Origin: Acidobacteriota bacterium
GTDB lineage: Bacteria > Acidobacteriota > Terriglobia > Terriglobales > Acidobacteriaceae
Direction of reading: 5' to 3'
Length of the DNA: 64,000 nt
Assembly (NCBI GenBank): GCA_021780315.1
Contig: JAJXYY010000010.1
Span: 1-64,000 of the forward strand
Under the pieces are notes generated by a model. It had not been told where the DNA came from and searched no databases. It saw nothing but the letters and a program-made list of their open reading frames with translations. The stretch's first letter is position 1. Each line of letters begins with the position of its first letter. The position numbers were made by a program, and so were the translations under genes. This document shows, piece after piece, positions 13,605 to 59,884 of this stretch.

Positions 13605-16544
13605 CTACCCCCTGCCCTTCAACTCCCCCTGCAACTCCGCCAGCAGATTCAGCGCCTCACGCGGCGTCATCTCGTCTACATCCACCTCATCCAGCCTATC
13701 CACAATCCGTTGCGACAGCGGAGTAAACATCGTCATCTGCATCGGCCTCTCCACCTCACCCGTCCGCGCTCCCCCCAGCGTCGAAGCCACCTGCTGCGTC
13801 TCTGCTCGCTCATGCACCTTCAATACCTCACGCGCCCGCGCAATCACCGCCGAAGGCAGACCGGCCAGCTTCGCCACTTCAATCCCGTAGCTCTTGCTCG
13901 CCGGCCCCGCCTCCACCGTATGCAGAAACACAATCCCCCCCGCCGTCTCCTTCACCGTCACCCGCAGATTCGTCAGTCGCTCCAGCCGCTCCGCCAGCAG
14001 CGTCAACTCGTGATAATGCGTCGCAAACAGCGTCCGTGCCCCGATCCGGTCATGCAGATGCTCCACCGTAGCCCACGCCAGTGAAAGTCCATCGTATGTT
14101 GCAGTTCCACGTCCCATCTCATCCAGTAGTACAAGGCTGCGAGCCGTCGCCGTATTCAAAATCGCCGCCGTCTCCGTCATCTCAACCATGAACGTCGACC
14201 GCCCCCGCGCCACATTGTCGCTCGCTCCGATCCGCGTGTAAATCCGGTCCACCAGCCCTAGCCGCATCCCTTCCGCCGGCACAAAACTCCCACACTGCGC
14301 CATCACCACCAGCAGCGCCGCCATCCGCAGATACGTACTCTTGCCCCCCATGTTCGGCCCCGTAATCAGCAGCACCGCCGGGCCCGCATTCGCATCCAGA
14401 TACACATTGTTCGGCACAAACCGCCCGCCGCCGCTCTCTTCCAGCCGCCGCTCTACCACCGGATGCCGCGCCTTCACAAACTCCAGCACCCCGCTGTCTT
14501 CCATCTCCGGCTTCACCCAGCCCCGCAACGCCGCCAGGTGCGCAAAGTTCGCCAGCAGATCGATCTCTGCCACCCGCCGCGCCGTCGCCCGTATCCGCCC
14601 CGCACCCGCCAGCAGCGCCTGCCGCAACTCCGCAAAGATCCGTCGCTCAATCTCCCCGCTCCGCTCCTGCGCCGTCAGAATCTTGGTCTCATACTCCTTC
14701 AACTCCGGCGTCGTAAACCGCTCCGCATTCACCAGCGTCTGCTTCCGCTCATAGTCCGCCGGAACCGCCTTTGCATTCGCCTTCGTCACCTCCAGGTAGT
14801 ACCCAAACACGCTGTTGAACCGGACCTTCAAGCTCCCAATCCCGGTGCGCGCCCGTTCCCGCTCCTCGATCGCCACCAACGCCTGCCGCCCACTCCTGCT
14901 CAACGCCCGCAGCTCATCCAACTCCGCGTCCACCCCCGTGCGAATCACCCCGCCATCGGCAAAACTCACCGGCGGCTCCTCCGCAATCGTCCCCACAATC
15001 CTCGCGTGCAAATCCTCCATCGCATCAAACCCACCCGCCAAAGAACCCGGGTGCCCCATCTTCGCGACAGTCTCATCGTCGCTAAGGTGGGCATCGTGCA
15101 ACGCACGACCGCTCTCTTTGCCCAACGACAAACGCTCGGGTGCCCCATGTCCCGCATCTGGGACATGGGATGAATCACTCTCCCCAGTCATCCCCCCCAA
15201 CTCCCGCCACCGCTTCGCCTCAAACCTCCCCACCGCCTCCACCAACCCCGGCAGACACCCCAACGTCCCCGCCAGCGCCATCACCTCCCGCGGCCCCGCC
15301 GAATCCACCGCCACCCGCGCCAGCAACCTCTCCAGGTCCAGCACCCCATCCATCGCCCGCCGCAAACCCTCCCGCCGCCGCAGATCACCCGCCGCCTCGC
15401 CCACTGCCTCCAGCCGCGCAGTTATCTCCTCCAGCGAGTTCGAAGGCCGCAACAGCGTCGCCCGTAACAACCGCTTGCCCATCGGCGTACAACACGCATC
15501 CAGCGTATGGAACAGCGTCGTCTGCATCGACTCGCCCGAAAACAGCGGCTCCACCAACTCCAGGTTCCGAACACTTACCGCATCCAGTTCCAGACAAGTC
15601 GACCGCTCGTAGTACCGCACCCCATCCACATGCTCCAACCCACCCTGCTTGGTCTTCTGCAGATAGTGAACCAGCGCGCCCGCCGCCACCGCCGCAGCCT
15701 CATGCCCCCCCAGTCCCATCCCATCCAGTGAGTGGACGCGAAAGTGGTTCCGCAGCAAAGGCACCGCATACTCGGCCGTAAACACCCAGGCCTCCACCGC
15801 CGTCTTCGTCCGAATCCCATCCAGCCCACCCGTCTCCTCAACCTCCGGCGGAGCCACAGAAACCGGCTGCCCCATCTTCGCCACAGCCTTATCGTCGCTT
15901 ACGGGTGCGTCGTGCGCAGCACGACCGTTCTCCTTTCCCAACCCTAACCTTCCACTCTCACCCACCCCACCCAGCAAACCCTCTCCATACAACAACTCCA
16001 CAGGGCGCACCCGCCCAATCTCATCCACCACCGCCGCCCAACCGCCCGCCCCCACAAACTCTGTAGCCCGAAACTCCCCCGTAGACAGATCCACCAGCGC
16101 CAACCCAGCCCGCGCCCCGGCACCCACCCCCGTCACCACCACACTCGCCAGATAATTGCTTTGGTCCGCTCCCAGCGTCGGGTCCATCGCCGTCCCCGGC
16201 GTCAGTACTCGCGTCACCTCCCGCCGCACAATCGTCTTGGTCTGCTTCGGGTCCTCCATCTGCTCACACAGTGCAATCCGGTAACCCATCCGCAGCAACC
16301 GCTGCAGATACACCTCCGCCGCATGGTACGGAACCCCGCACATCGGCTGCTTCTTCTCTTTGTCCCGGGCCGTAAGCGTCAGTTGCAACTCCCGCGCCAC
16401 CAGGATCGCATCCTCATAAAACAGCTCGTAGAAGTCCCCAATCCGACAGAACATCAGGCAGTCCGGATACTGCTCCTTCGCAGCAAAATACTGCCGCATC
16501 ACCGGAGTCAACACACTTGCATCACTTGTAGTTTCTTTGCTCAC
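13605..16544 (-). CDS. mutS: DNA mismatch repair protein MutS (with two repeat-encoded insertions)
   Basis: About 979 residues from GTG 16544; a TTG at 16574 would add ten, and neither start has a strong ribosome site. The mismatch-reading domain is present with DCLMFCRIGDFYELFYEDA (Phe-X-Glu), then connector, lever and clamp regions. The ATPase has Walker A GPNMGGKSTYLRM, LLDEMGRGTATYDGLSLAWA and THYHELTLLAERL. It recognises mispairs and starts repair with MutL, which is not in this window. The protein is longer than the usual 850-900 residues. Two extra segments, near residues 200-225 and 457-500, encode GKENGRAAHDAPVSDDKAVA and GKESGRALHDAHLSDDETVA. Both come from copies of one dispersed repeat. 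The catalytic core is intact, so the protein is probably functional. Confidence 0.96.
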   Translation of the reverse strand: MSKETTSDASVLTPVMRQYFAAKEQYPDCLMFCRIGDFYELFYEDAILVARELQLTLTARDKEKKQPMCGVPYHAAEVYLQRLLRMGYRIALCEQMEDPKQTKTIVRREVTRVLTPGTAMDPTLGADQSNYLASVVVTGVGAGARAGLALVDLSTGEFRATEFVGAGGWAAVVDEIGRVRPVELLYGEGLLGGVGESGRLGLGKENGRAAHDAPVSDDKAVAKMGQPVSVAPPEVEETGGLDGIRTKTAVEAWVFTAEYAVPLLRNHFRVHSLDGMGLGGHEAAAVAAGALVHYLQKTKQGGLEHVDGVRYYERSTCLELDAVSVRNLELVEPLFSGESMQTTLFHTLDACCTPMGKRLLRATLLRPSNSLEEITARLEAVGEAAGDLRRREGLRRAMDGVLDLERLLARVAVDSAGPREVMALAGTLGCLPGLVEAVGRFEAKRWRELGGMTGESDSSHVPDAGHGAPERLSLGKESGRALHDAHLSDDETVAKMGHPGSLAGGFDAMEDLHARIVGTIAEEPPVSFADGGVIRTGVDAELDELRALSRSGRQALVAIEERERARTGIGSLKVRFNSVFGYYLEVTKANAKAVPADYERKQTLVNAERFTTPELKEYETKILTAQERSGEIERRIFAELRQALLAGAGRIRATARRVAEIDLLANFAHLAALRGWVKPEMEDSGVLEFVKARHPVVERRLEESGGGRFVPNNVYLDANAGPAVLLITGPNMGGKSTYLRMAALLVVMAQCGSFVPAEGMRLGLVDRIYTRIGASDNVARGRSTFMVEMTETAAILNTATARSLVLLDEMGRGTATYDGLSLAWATVEHLHDRIGARTLFATHYHELTLLAERLERLTNLRVTVKETAGGIVFLHTVEAGPASKSYGIEVAKLAGLPSAVIARAREVLKVHERAETQQVASTLGGARTGEVERPMQMTMFTPLSQRIVDRLDEVDVDEMTPREALNLLAELQGELKGRG
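15051..15124. repeat. Dispersed repeat, copy A (inside mutS)
   Basis: The copy starts GTGCCCCATCTTCGCGACAG, contains CTAAGGTGGGCATCGTGCA and ends CTCTCTTTGCCCA. It matches copies B (15867-15940) and C (12280-12356). It is in frame with mutS and adds GKESGRALHDAHLSDDETVA plus KMGH. A second small repeat-like hairpin follows 19 bp later, so the insertion is composite. Confidence 0.85.
15144..15169. repeat. Perfect hairpin CCCATGTCCC-N6-GGGACATGGG inside mutS
   Basis: CCCATGTCCC (15144-15153) and GGGACATGGG (15160-15169) form a 10-bp stem around GCATCT. It lies within the extra segment of mutS next to repeat copy A and is translated as part of SSHVPDAGHGAP. It looks like a REP/MITE-type unit rather than a terminator, because it is in the middle of an open frame. 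Confidence 0.7.
15867..15940. repeat. Dispersed repeat, copy B (inside mutS)
   Basis: The copy starts CTGCCCCATCTTCGCCACAG, continues TTATCGTCGCTTACGGGTG and ends TCTCCTTTCCCA. It is in frame with mutS and adds GKENGRAAHDAPVSDDKAVA plus KMGQP in the connector region. It is in the same orientation and the same translation frame as copy A, about 740 bp away. Confidence 0.85.
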
Positions 16545-16645
16545 AGGAGTGCCCAGAATACCGCACCTTGCCACCCGCCTCCCCCGCCATCTCTACGGCA
16601 CCCTCGCCATATCTGTTGCCACAGACAAAGTCGCAACTAAAACGT

Positions 16646-55348: not shown

Positions 55349-58300
55349 ATGGATTCGATAAAAGGTGAAACACGTGTTGCACCCTTCACGAGGTCTCCGT
55401 TGACCTCGAAACCATCTTACTCGCTGCTCGATGAGCGTTTTGACCATGATTCTTGCGGTGTAGGCTTCGTTGCTACCGTCGATGCCGTTCCTTCGCACAC
55501 TATATTGCAGCAGGCGCTGACCGCATTGGGCAGACTGGCGCATCGTGGCGCTACGGCTGCGGATGGCAAGAGCAGTGATGGCGTCGGCGTCATGACTGCG
55601 GTGCCGCGTTCTTTGTTGGTGCGTGAGGCTGCACTTTCGATCCAACCGGATCAGGTTCTGGGTGTTGGCATGTTGCTTCTTCCCAAAGAAGAGAGCCGCG
55701 TCGAGCCATTGCTGGAACGGTGCCTGGTATCACATGATCTCCAGGTTTTAAGCTGGCGAGATGTACCAGTGGAGCCTGGATGTCTAGGAGAAATTGCCCT
55801 GAGTACCATGCCAAGGGTTCGTCAGGTGCTGGTTGTAGATTCGCCAAATGCCGACCATGAGACGATGGAGCGGCGTCTTTATCTTGCCCGTAAGCAGTTT
55901 GAACGCGCCCATGAGCGCGGCGATGTCACGGGATATATCTGTTCGCTTTCGACCCAGACGATCATTTACAAGGCGATGTGCTCCGGCAATCTGCTCGCTG
56001 AGTTCTATTCGGATCTTGCGTCAAAAGACTACGTAACGCCGTTTGCGGTGTTTCATCAGCGATATGCAACAAATACGCTGCCGACGTGGCATCGCGCTCA
56101 GCCGGGAAGAAAGATCGCCCATAATGGTGAAATCAACACTGTGTGGGGTAATCGGTCGCGCATGGCTGCTCGCGACTCAACGCTACCTGTAGAGTGCAAG
56201 CCTGTTCTAACGCAGGGTGGTACCGATTCTACAAGTCTTGACGAAGCTATTGAGCTGATCTCACAGAACGGACGCAGCCTGTCCGAAGCCATCCGCATGC
56301 TGTTACCTCCAGCTACGGTCGGGCATCAGACGTCGCCATTTCTTCGATATCACACCGATTGTGCCGAGCCATGGGATGGACCGGCAGCGATTGCTTTCAG
56401 CGATGGAAGGGTTGTTGGTGCCGTGCTGGACCGGAACGGTTTGCGTCCGTGCCGCTTTGCAATTACGAGCACAGGACTGGTAGTGGCAGGTTCGGAGGCA
56501 GGACTGGTTGACCTTGATCCAGACCAGGTGACACATAGTGGACGATTAGGCCCCGGGCAGATGCTGGTCGTCGATCTTGTAGATCATAAGATTTATGAGG
56601 ATGATGAACTGCTGCGGTTGTTCGACGCTGGGGCAACCTACGCGAAGCTGGTTGAGGATGCACCCCTTGTGCCCGTTATGGCTCACTCTGCGGCAGGGCC
56701 TGAAGCATTTGCAGCAACCCAGCGCGGGTTCGGCTACACCCGCGAAGATGTGAAGATGATCTTGCAGCCAATGGCCATCGAGGGTAAAGATGCCGTCTGG
56801 TCGATGGGTGATGATACGCCATTGGCCTTTCTGGCACGGTCTCCGCGACCTTTATATGCCTATTTCCGGCAGCGATTTGCCCAGGTGACTAATCCCGCTA
56901 TCGATCCTCTTCGGGAAGCGTGTGTCGTCTCCTTGCATACGAGACTTGGGCCCTGGCCACACATTCTGGACAAAAATGCGTCATTGCCAGGTCTGTCGCT
57001 GCCGTCACCTTTTCTGTCGTTAGGACAGGTAGAGGCCTTGCGGACGCGTCAACATGCTCATGTCGATGAGCTTCGGTTTGCGGAGTTGGCTTGCGTCTTC
57101 CGTGCGGATATTTCCTTGCAGCAGGCTTTGGACGAGCTGTGCATGAAGGCCATCGAACTGGTAAGGAATGGTGGAAGAATTCTGCTGCTGTCTGACCGTT
57201 CGGCAAGTGCCGAACGTCTTCCAATTCCAATGGCGATGGCGACTGGTGCGGTTCATCAGGCGCTGGTGTCGGCTGGCCTGCGCACCCTGGCTGGTATTGC
57301 CGTAGAAGCCGGTGATTGCAGGGATATCCACCATGCTGCGGTACTGATTGGTTATGGTGCAGGAGCAGTATGTCCATGGCTTGCGCTTGAGACTGCGATG
57401 CGTCTGGCTCCAGCTGGAACCGATGCCGTGGAGTGCGAACGAAAGATGCTGAAGGCTTTGGACGCCGGTCTCGCCAAGGTGATGTCGAAGATGGGCATCT
57501 CGGTGGTGGACAGTTATCGTGGTGCCCACTTATTTGACATTCTGGGCCTGCATTCCAGTGTGGTTGATCGTTGTTTCACGGGGACTCCCGCACCTTTGTC
57601 TGGCATTGGATTTGCTGAAATTGAGCGGCATCTGCGTCAGACATGGCAGGCTTCCTCGTCTGATGCTCCGGTATCTTTGGATCTTCCAGATTACGGTTGG
57701 GTTCGATTTCGGAAAGCTGATGTTTCTGAGCCCCACGCCTGGCAGCCGCCTACCGTTAAAGCACTACAGTCCGTGGTTGGAAGTGCGCGAGGTGTTGCCC
57801 AGCCGACGGATCAGGCTGGTGCTTTTGCGATCTATACCCGTGATGTCATTGCGCGCGACCCCGCAGTTTTACGTGATCTGCTGGAGATTCGCCCAGCTGG
57901 ACCGGAGTTGCCGATTGCAGATGTAGAAGATTCGAGAAGCCTGTGCAAGAAGTTTGTCGCGAGCGCGATGTCCCTGGGTTCATTGAGCCCGGAGGCACAC
58001 CAGACGATCACGCTTGCTATGAACATGCTTGGTGGGCGCTCAAATACTGGCGAAGGTGGCGAGGACCCACAGGTTTATCGTTCCCAGTTGGTGGAACAGC
58101 CGCTTGCTACGAATGGCGCTGATACTGCTTTGCAGGCAAACGGGGCCGTGGGTACAGTTTTGGCTGAACCGGTAACCTCTGCACCTGCGGTACATGTTTC
58201 TTTGAACAACAAGATCAAGCAGGTCGCATCGGGCCGCTTTGGCGTGACGGCTGAGTATCTTGCTCACGCGGAAGAGATTGAGATCAAGGTTGCTCAGGGA

Positions 58301-59884
58301 GCCAAGCCGGGCGAGGGTGGTCAACTACCCGGACACAAGGTAAGTGGACTCATCGCCAGGTTGCGTCATGCTCAACCTGGTGTATCGCTGATCTCTCCTC
58401 CTCCACACCATGATATTTACTCAATTGAGGACCTTGCCCAGCTGATTTATGACCTGAAGCGGATCAATCCCAAGGCAGCCGTTGGCGTCAAGCTGGTCTC
58501 CAGTTGTGGGGTTGGCACGGTGGCAGCAGGGGTTGCGAAGGCGTACGCGGATTACATCGTGATAGCTGGCAACACGGGCGGAACTGGGGCTGCAGCCCTA
58601 TCCAGCATCAAGTATGCCGGCAATCCATGGGAACTGGGGCTTGCAGAAGCGCAGCAGGTACTGATGCAGAACGGTATGCGTGGCCGCGTTCGTCTGAGGA
58701 CGGACGGCGGATTGGCGACAGCACGGGACGTTTTGGTTGCGGCGCTTCTGGGTGCCGACGAGTATGCCTTCGGAACAGCGATTCTGGTGGTTTTGGGGTG
58801 CGATATGGCACGTCAATGCCATCTGAATACGTGTCCCACGGGTATTGCGACGCAGAAGCCGGAGTTGCGCGCTAAATTTCGCGGTAAACCAGAGCATGTA
58901 GTGCGGTTCTTTGATGAACTGTCGTCCGACTTGCAGCATCTGCTGGCGCGTTACGGTTTGCCATCACTGGAAGCGGCGGTTGGGCGCACGGATTTGCTGG
59001 AGCAGGTGCGTTTTGATGGCAATCTTGACCTACAGCCCATGCTGGCAAAGGTCTCGGACGGGCCGAGCCGGTGGATGGGCATCAGGAACGATCAGCCTGT
59101 TTCGGCACCACCGGTTGATGAAGCATGGGTCGTTCCTGCGCTTGAGGCTATTGCGGAAGGTAAGCCTTATGTCGTTGATTCCAGGATCAATAACAGTGAT
59201 CGAGCCATTGGCGCGCGACTATCCGGGGAGATTGCATCGCAGCGGTCCCAGCATGATGTGCCTGTCGATGTCACATTGAATCTCGATGGAATTGCGGGAC
59301 AGAGCTTTGGTGCGTTTACGGTTGAGGGCGTGAAGCTAGTGCTCACTGGTCAGGCGAATGACTTTGTGGGTAAAGGCTTGTCTGGAGGCGAGATTGTGAT
59401 TCGCGCCCGTGGTCTCGCGGCCAAGGATAGCGGTCAGCATGTAATTCTTGGCAACGTAGCTTTGTACGGTGCGACGGCTGGTCAACTGTATGCCGCCGGG
59501 CGCGCCGGTGAGCGTTTCGCGGTGCGGAATTCTGGCGCAAATGCTGTTGTGGAAGGGGTTGGCGATCACGGCTGTGAGTACATGACAGGCGGCACCGTGG
59601 TGGTCACGGGAGTTGCGGGCATGAACTTCGGCGCGGGTATGACGGGCGGACTGGCGTGGGTTTATGACGCGGACGGAACGTTTGTCTCGGGGCAGCGTTA
59701 TCACCCTGATTTCGTTCTTCCTGAGGCCTTTAGCGAGGTGGATGAGGCTGCGCAGGAGGCTTTGCGTGGGCTGTTGGCGGCCCATGCGGAGCGGGCGGAG
59801 AGCAGTCTGTCGCATACGATGCTGGCCGATTGGAAGAAGAGTTCGGCAGCGTTTGTTCGCCTGACTCCGAAGCCGCAGGTCTAG
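55349..59884 (+). CDS. gltB: Glutamate synthase large subunit
   Basis: 1511 residues. The glutaminase domain begins after a propeptide of about 35 residues at the nucleophile cysteine in FDHDSCGVGFVAT, with HQRYATNTLPTWHRAQPGRK and IAHNGEINTVWGNR. The central and FMN domains include GEGGEDPQVYRS and KPGEGGQLPGHKV. The Fe-S cysteines are in CDMARQCHLNTCPTGIATQ. The C-terminal beta-helix has GVGDHGCEYMTGGTVVVTG. It converts glutamine and 2-oxoglutarate to two glutamates. The small subunit gltD is not adjacent. The gene diverges from argR across a tandem ARG box, linking glutamate supply to arginine synthesis. G+C is intermediate between the arg cluster and the rest. Confidence 0.97.
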   Translation: MDSIKGETRVAPFTRSPLTSKPSYSLLDERFDHDSCGVGFVATVDAVPSHTILQQALTALGRLAHRGATAADGKSSDGVGVMTAVPRSLLVREAALSIQPDQVLGVGMLLLPKEESRVEPLLERCLVSHDLQVLSWRDVPVEPGCLGEIALSTMPRVRQVLVVDSPNADHETMERRLYLARKQFERAHERGDVTGYICSLSTQTIIYKAMCSGNLLAEFYSDLASKDYVTPFAVFHQRYATNTLPTWHRAQPGRKIAHNGEINTVWGNRSRMAARDSTLPVECKPVLTQGGTDSTSLDEAIELISQNGRSLSEAIRMLLPPATVGHQTSPFLRYHTDCAEPWDGPAAIAFSDGRVVGAVLDRNGLRPCRFAITSTGLVVAGSEAGLVDLDPDQVTHSGRLGPGQMLVVDLVDHKIYEDDELLRLFDAGATYAKLVEDAPLVPVMAHSAAGPEAFAATQRGFGYTREDVKMILQPMAIEGKDAVWSMGDDTPLAFLARSPRPLYAYFRQRFAQVTNPAIDPLREACVVSLHTRLGPWPHILDKNASLPGLSLPSPFLSLGQVEALRTRQHAHVDELRFAELACVFRADISLQQALDELCMKAIELVRNGGRILLLSDRSASAERLPIPMAMATGAVHQALVSAGLRTLAGIAVEAGDCRDIHHAAVLIGYGAGAVCPWLALETAMRLAPAGTDAVECERKMLKALDAGLAKVMSKMGISVVDSYRGAHLFDILGLHSSVVDRCFTGTPAPLSGIGFAEIERHLRQTWQASSSDAPVSLDLPDYGWVRFRKADVSEPHAWQPPTVKALQSVVGSARGVAQPTDQAGAFAIYTRDVIARDPAVLRDLLEIRPAGPELPIADVEDSRSLCKKFVASAMSLGSLSPEAHQTITLAMNMLGGRSNTGEGGEDPQVYRSQLVEQPLATNGADTALQANGAVGTVLAEPVTSAPAVHVSLNNKIKQVASGRFGVTAEYLAHAEEIEIKVAQGAKPGEGGQLPGHKVSGLIARLRHAQPGVSLISPPPHHDIYSIEDLAQLIYDLKRINPKAAVGVKLVSSCGVGTVAAGVAKAYADYIVIAGNTGGTGAAALSSIKYAGNPWELGLAEAQQVLMQNGMRGRVRLRTDGGLATARDVLVAALLGADEYAFGTAILVVLGCDMARQCHLNTCPTGIATQKPELRAKFRGKPEHVVRFFDELSSDLQHLLARYGLPSLEAAVGRTDLLEQVRFDGNLDLQPMLAKVSDGPSRWMGIRNDQPVSAPPVDEAWVVPALEAIAEGKPYVVDSRINNSDRAIGARLSGEIASQRSQHDVPVDVTLNLDGIAGQSFGAFTVEGVKLVLTGQANDFVGKGLSGGEIVIRARGLAAKDSGQHVILGNVALYGATAGQLYAAGRAGERFAVRNSGANAVVEGVGDHGCEYMTGGTVVVTGVAGMNFGAGMTGGLAWVYDADGTFVSGQRYHPDFVLPEAFSEVDEAAQEALRGLLAAHAERAESSLSHTMLADWKKSSAAFVRLTPKPQV

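Follow-up and report, generated by a model that had tools for sequence, protein, structure and literature searches.

Among described systems, the closest to the elements reported here are the repetitive extragenic palindromes (REPs) that are paired with REP-associated tyrosine transposases (RAYTs, or TnpA_REP), the two together being called "REPtrons." TnpA_REP acts on single-stranded REPs (PMC8266576), and the occurrence of REPs within repair genes is already published: the accessible part of PMC3733652 describes REPs in genes, many of them for replication or repair (uvrABCD, recBCD, polymerase I, dnaE2, and ligase), two Xanthomonas recB genes hit at approximately the same site, and speculation about a mutator effect. 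Rickettsia palindromic elements (RPEs) are an earlier example of palindromes in frame (PMC10969869, as far as the accessible text goes). Here we describe two inserts in the mutS gene of an Acidobacteriota bacterium, found in a stretch of 64,000 nucleotides (the window) from a genome of 4.06 Mb in 47 contigs. We refer to its clade as Granulicella/Edaphobacter, a label taken from named MutS relatives.

The elements resemble the REPs of REPtrons in being short and palindromic, with an unpaired head that is fixed, present in more than 100 copies, mostly intergenic, and arranged both singly and as composites, and also in flanking the gene for a HUH Y1 transposase. They differ in their end tag, which is GGGTGCCCCA and not the GTAG or CGTC that defines the REP superfamilies of those names (PMC3733652, accessible part), and in that the type we call M1 has two hairpins in ~64 nt. 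As in that work, repair, replication, tRNA-synthetase, and RNA-processing genes carry REPs, but the common-site hits in its accessible text concern recB only, whereas here three loops of one protein have taken several REP types clade-wide; mutS is not named among the targets in that part of the text. The likeness to RPEs is one of principle only, both being palindromic repeats in frame in protein genes, and RPEs are longer, at ~150 bp (PMC10969869 and PMC3733652, accessible parts). Class 3 REPtron-like elements of Acidobacteria also combine a Y1 transposase with high-copy secondary structures (~600 in Solibacter) but form another class in that scheme, and insertion into genes is not described in the accessible part of the paper (PMC6006769). 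A table in the accessible part of PMC12306157 includes Granulicella aggregans. Titles and abstract openings of the open-licence literature gave no report of REPs in mutS or in Granulicella/Edaphobacter genes; as far as this search shows, the GGGTGCCCCA-headed REPs and their RAYT subtype in this clade, the mutS target, the recurrence in three loops, and the constant phase of each type at two of them are new.

A sequence-only reading of the window had proposed that a dispersed repeat inserted twice, in frame, into mutS. Both copies are real and lie in the 989-amino-acid (aa) minus-strand mutS open reading frame (ORF), in which a common frame gives GKESGRALHDAHLSDDETVAKMGHP and GKENGRAAHDAPVSDDKAVAKMGQP; the 64-kb window holds no third copy besides these two, A and B. 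The relevant features are as follows.

13605..16574, minus strand: mutS, encoding the DNA mismatch repair protein MutS (989 aa), assigned from its ORF, Pfam domains MutS_I to V, alignment to Escherichia coli MutS, and comparison of an AlphaFold2 (AF2) model with structure 3k0s.
15046..15173, plus strand: composite insert A, consisting of REP M1, a spacer, and REP M2, antisense to mutS, delimited by genome matches and single-stranded DNA (ssDNA) folding.
15049..15112, plus strand: REP module 1 (M1), copy A, with head GGGTGCCCCAT and two hairpins; minus-strand reading GRALHDAHLSDDETVAKMGHP.
15138..15169, plus strand: REP module 2 (M2); minus-strand reading SHVPDAGHGAP.
15865..15928, plus strand: REP module 1 (M1), copy B, decayed, with head GGCTGCCCCAT; minus-strand reading GRAAHDAPVSDDKAVAKMGQP; an orthologous copy is present in L102.
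15036..15182, minus strand: MutS site A loop, residues 465-513, in the core domain before the clamp, with a predicted local distance difference test score (pLDDT) of <50.
15837..15968, minus strand: MutS site B loop, residues 203-246, in the connector domain, pLDDT < 50.
14373..14411, minus strand: MutS site C, approximately residues 722-734, before the Walker A motif GPNMGGKST, empty in the window gene.

E. coli MutS aligned to residues 21-212, 253-444, and 516-981 of the window protein, leaving 213-252 and 445-515 unaligned, so that both inserts are skipped. In an alignment of 86 acidobacterial MutS sequences (six from other phyla were dropped, and L159, L171, and L172 had no usable ORF), 72 had only three residues at site A. 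The inserts are thus absent from typical MutS, as had been proposed. The window gene retains domains I to V, the Walker A motif GPNMGGKST, and an unbroken frame, from which an active protein is predicted. It had also been called an essential gene, which is incorrect: mutS is a mismatch-repair gene that is not essential for growth.

The repeat is dispersed, as the sequence-only reading had it, and occurs far beyond mutS, so that the refuting outcome named there, a unit confined to this gene, did not arise. A 128-bp query gave 63 matches in the genome (E values up to 10), among them nearly full composites at C22:82759, C34:402796, and C16:676881, 677969, and 264835. The head GGGTGCCCCAT occurred 141 times in the 4.06 Mb and its reversed control not once, which excludes chance. 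Starting from 100 of these 141 places and 100 of the 101 from a further search, among others, we took 60 stretches (343,832 bases) and merged them with the window; together they hold most, not all, heads of the genome, and in them we placed 140 heads of the form GGGTGCCCCA[TC], comprising 58 M2, 38 M1, 24 M5, 14 M4, and 6 others. The M1 palindrome is conserved as a structure: in 28 copies, 97.1% of stem cells were paired, covariation was 0.242 (0.107 in shuffles), and doubly changed cells numbered 44 (15.9 in shuffles), the last two values being reached by 0 of 500 shuffles. Further pair types in the M1 stems of these copies showed no excess (9, compared with 9.2 in shuffles). M1 copies have an unpaired GGGTG at the hairpin's 5′ foot, a conservation that is partly the product of how copies were chosen, these having been retrieved by the head. 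As ssDNA, composite A folded at −32.4 kcal/mol, compared with −20.3 in shuffles (z = −4.0), and copy B, whose head is variant and whose first stem has decayed, gave a z of −1.3. A perfect hairpin noted beside copy A at 15144-15169 is indeed present and belongs to a second, different REP, M2.

Copies A and B seem to have inserted separately and not to be products of a duplication within the gene, because B, which ranked 20th among the own-genome matches, is less like the query taken from A (81% identity) than are 13 of the 18 other copies that rank above it (84 to 98%). A tandem or internal duplication in mutS, with no mobile element, would account for the frame and orientation that A and B share, but on this identity ranking we rejected it, and M1 at site B alone in L102 and at site A alone in L103 also speaks against it; we give it next to no credence.

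By sequence, the elements look like the REPs of RAYTs. A search with PF01797 found a Y1-transposase match in 49 of 60 genus genomes and one match in the window's own genome (L081, minus strand, G000:C13 ~56505-59723). Three M2 REPs flank this gene in its own orientation, one upstream and two downstream, so the M2 type of composite A is also the type beside the only Y1 (RAYT-like) gene that the search recovered here. Of the 42 Y1 loci in our survey, 30 were the best scoring of the genus search, one was the own locus, and 11 were chosen by hand. Among the 18 genes whose HUH motif is MPEH (17 genes) or MPNH (1 gene), 15 had a same-strand head within 260 bases upstream, as did none of the 24 others (Fisher P = 8e-9, for a grouping set after the motifs were seen). 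The cognate REPs flanking RAYT genes are of various types: M1 upstream of L254 in G036, M2 at the own locus, M2-like REPs at L256, and still other types, with CCTTCGC at L190, L192, and L196 and TCATCGC at L191. The REP types found in mutS are among those at RAYT genes. We know of no RAYT pairing for RPEs. Profile NF047646 (REP_Tyr_transpos, cutoff of 80 bits), run on seven domain fragments only, scored the MPDH-type L193 at 81.2, four MPEH-type fragments of 103 to 112 aa at 72.0 to 77.9, and one of 70 aa at 46.4; the fragment of L178 is IS200-like, with 25.8 for NF047646 versus 144.8. The own RAYT-like gene has an in-frame TAG, and with 58 M2 heads placed, the REP population may now lack an active transposase of its own.

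Most copies lie between genes. In stretches that are 79% coding, 119 of the 140 heads were intergenic, 4 overlapped a gene end, and 17 were inside predicted genes, with gene calls made by a home-made codon-score finder and checked against Pfam for ten genes only. In nine of these ten the REP was judged to be within the protein, and in six it is enclosed by Pfam domains or has one to either side: mutS, mnmG (G000:C16:883163-884998, L040; two M2), rnr for RNase R (G000:C20:15948-17381, L009), nnr/YjeF (M2), asnS (M1-like), and holA (M4). The remaining three are two PMT-like glycosyltransferases, one with M2 and M1 and the other with two M4 and M1, in which Pfam recognized a domain on a single side of the REPs, and an ORF that combines SSF and beta-lactamase-fold domains. 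The rnr gene encodes four tandem M2-type peptides (THVSEARHGAP-like), three of them with a head; their position between the cold-shock and RNB domains represents an in-frame amplification of a REP within a gene. We rejected tyrS as a target, since its M4 is upstream of the likely start codon. Among long-ORF matches of the M1 peptide elsewhere, we inspected twelve loci, of which L240 (ispE by eye) and L210 (mnmG) appear to be true in-gene copies, in the same frame. The others were judged by eye to be N-terminal extensions or antisense ORFs and were set aside; L244, for example, runs antisense to a PMT-like gene of the window's genome, and it is in the frame of that gene that the REP is read. 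At the peptide level, and by eye, mnmG is a second recurrent target beside mutS, with varied REP-like peptides occupying two sites in ~10 of 26 relatives (26 of 31 loci, L298-L327 plus the own one, after five were removed by a motif filter).

The sequence-only reading offered two explanations for the shared frame: that the repeat is selected to be open in it, or that only such insertions survived. REPs are antisense in mutS, mnmG, rnr, and nnr and sense in the remaining in-gene cases; therefore, several frames are in use. In the M1 consensus forms, stops close two or three of the six frames, and in the M2 consensus three antisense frames are open. The frames used are mostly hydrophilic and without Cys or Trp, with exceptions in the sense M2 of one transferase (Cys), the head-bearing REP of the SSF ORF (Cys), and the holA REP (Trp). 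A single, globally selected frame is thus rejected by the intergenic majority, the stops, and the several frames, and survival of tolerated insertions is the better fit. The insertion reading is right, and the frame-selection reading is only partly so: it fails globally, but at mutS sites A and B each REP type keeps a constant phase, as described below.

Across the clade, the same MutS loops have been occupied repeatedly. REP types were scored by peptide patterns that we wrote (L052 and L150 were counted as M3 without a strict DNA head) on a quick tree of 81 sequences (five fragments dropped; 49 of 78 inner branches starred). M1 to M4 peptides were present at site A in 8 of the 81 rows, at site B in 13, and at site C in 7; altogether 18 of 57 clade sequences and 0 of 24 outside the clade carried REPs. 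The minimum number of type changes was 7 at A, 10 at B, and 7 at C, hence at least 24, gains not being separable from losses. At DNA level, the 57 clade mutS ORFs contain 27 heads, one of them within an N-terminal extension. Phase at sites A and B was constant for each type in all 19 cases: in 5 of 5 heads M1 read ..KMG(H/Q)P, and in 14 of 14, some in tandem copies, the other types read ..GAP. Site B is 14 to ~50 residues long where no repeat peptide was recognized, and longer loops mostly hold one. Inserts of unrelated DNA at homologous sites had been named as evidence that would count against insertion. Relatives do hold different DNA at the same sites, but many of these inserts belong to further REP types that share the head, and therefore the insertion reading is strengthened. 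The loops also hold repeats that are not REPs. One, of the GGTCCTTCGCTCCGCTCAGGATGACA type and read LRSAQDD, is in frame at site B of L103, L134, and L118 and at site A of L054, and a similar peptide occurs in some mnmG genes; the other, made of short-period ATTTCCACAGG units and read STGIST, is at site A of L053, L084, L111, L112, L150, and L052, all in one subclade.

mutS is hit by, or tolerant of, REPs more than its neighbors. At the 57 clade loci, 26 heads (25 of them antisense) fell in 164 kb of mutS, at 16 loci, compared with 4 in the 221 kb of predicted genes that flank it (a single locus accounts for three, and one is not REP-like) and 18 in 44 kb of intergenic DNA; one further head lay at an edge. 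Where the neighbors were found, anmK had 1 head in 43 loci, ccmC 0 in 35, and hemA 0 in 33, together 1 in 115 kb.

The AF2 model of the window MutS (mean pLDDT of 77.1, predicted template modeling score of 0.74) had pLDDT values of <50 at residues 1-16, 203-246, 465-513, and 928-950 and otherwise matched E. coli MutS 3k0s (Z score of 43.1 over 750 residues, root mean square deviation of 3.6). The MutS core is under purifying selection: the ratio of nonsynonymous to synonymous rates (dN/dS) averaged 0.125 over the 8 pairs that carry REPs and 0.055 over 11 other pairs. The same rise was seen in anmK (0.293 in 6 REP-carrying pairs versus 0.142 in 9), ccmC (0.304 in 4 versus 0.087 in 6), and hemA (0.282 in 4 versus 0.115 in 5), in comparisons for which the pairs were hand-picked and nonindependent, the REP pairs being mostly less diverged in the proportion of synonymous differences, which can raise dN/dS. 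Because these neighbors rise as well, a relaxation specific to mutS was rejected, and the results suggest that REP-carrying lineages are under weaker selection as a whole while MutS function is not lost. Within the inserts, copy B and its L102 orthologue differed at 7 of 15.3 synonymous and 5 of 56.7 nonsynonymous sites (dN/dS of 0.133, compared with 0.159 in the rest of MutS); the pair L051/L104 gave 0.37, and its two inserts may not be orthologous.

Very probably, then, REPs spread by RAYTs have been kept in mutS where a flexible linker could absorb a stop-free peptide in frame. The REPs, ssDNA hairpins with the common head GGGTGCCCCA, would be mobilized in vivo by the RAYTs of this clade of soil Acidobacteria, most of them landing between genes and a few within. 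Survivors within genes would be those in a flexible linker that keep the frame, bring no stop, and add a mostly short, hydrophilic peptide without Cys or Trp, close to neutral in effect. Three MutS linkers (in the connector, in the core before the clamp, and directly before Walker A) have taken different REP types repeatedly in different lineages, and the protein would carry the expressed peptides as disordered loops with its function seemingly retained. Later, the palindrome may decay while the coding insert persists, as in copy B.

Several observations weigh against this explanation. Neither a target duplication nor a base-level empty site has been established for the insertions, and the gene preference was measured on the very gene that had drawn attention. 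The sole own Y1 gene carries the in-frame TAG and has M2 flanks, so that mobilization of M1 in this genome would have to be deduced, and the likely RAYT of M1 was seen solely in a different species. Of the MPEH/MPNH genes, 3 of 18 have no strict upstream head (L188 has none, L198 has one downstream only, and L203 has a variant head), and stray heads lie downstream of two Y1 genes of the other group, L197 and L249. The low pLDDT of the inserts is partly built in, with few alignment rows there. Finally, amino acid changes between copy B and L102 are below the neutral expectation (5 of 12, binomial P = 0.006, over 24 codons), which argues against plain neutrality.

Recurrence and frame might instead reflect site-directed insertion, in which the RAYT machinery or single-stranded replication intermediates prefer targets in mutS and mnmG. 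The strong gene bias (26 heads per 164 kb of mutS and 1 per 115 kb of neighbors), the antisense orientation of 25 of 26 mutS heads, and a phase that held in 19 of 19 cases despite the three open antisense frames of the M2 consensus would all fit targeting. The loops, on the other hand, are hit by different REP types and shared with non-REP repeats (LRSAQ in one row at A and three at B, STGIST in six rows at A), and no common target motif was evident by eye in the inspected flanks, in which no formal motif search was made; we regard targeting as unlikely, though the most serious of the rivals. That some REP-coded loops are by now useful parts of MutS, maintained by selection, would explain why copy B is about as constrained as the rest of the protein and departs from neutrality, but this is one pair of 24 codons, L051/L104 gives 0.37, the loops vary freely in sequence and presence between close relatives, and their modeled structure is of low confidence. 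Such exaptation seems to us distinctly improbable.

A mutator effect, by which an inserted REP impairs mismatch repair and spreads by hitchhiking with beneficial mutations, has been proposed for other repair genes (PMC3733652, accessible part). It would be in keeping with targets in repair and replication (mutS and holA) and with the higher core dN/dS of REP-carrying pairs, but that rise is shared by anmK, ccmC, and hemA, the catalytic motifs are intact, old inserts such as copy B persist, and mnmG, rnr, nnr, asnS, and membrane-protein genes are hit as well. We hold it to be very improbable here, and the neighbor-gene controls favor tolerance, in lineages where purifying selection is weaker in general. 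A lasting relation of REPs and RAYTs with a group of information-processing genes (mutS, mnmG, rnr, holA, and asnS), in which the MutS loops are preferred sites of fixed phase and some REP peptides have become selected protein parts, is a bolder reading that we consider distinctly improbable, on a par with exaptation; if true, repair proteins would gain new linker modules from mobile palindromes.

Read as tolerated insertions of RAYT-spread REPs, these elements provide a natural repeated experiment, with many lineages and several REP types meeting three homologous loops of one conserved repair protein. They make testable the question raised in PMC3733652 (accessible part), that is, whether repair genes are hit through chance, tolerance, targeting, or favored weak repair, and they illustrate a route from noncoding mobile DNA to protein sequence. 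They also call for caution in annotation, as REP-coded peptides recur in unrelated proteins. A side observation concerns L125, L146, and L169, which are titled Verrucomicrobia or Rhodanobacteraceae and hold a mutS of the Acidobacteria clade (66 to 71% identity to that of the window); their bin labels are probably wrong.

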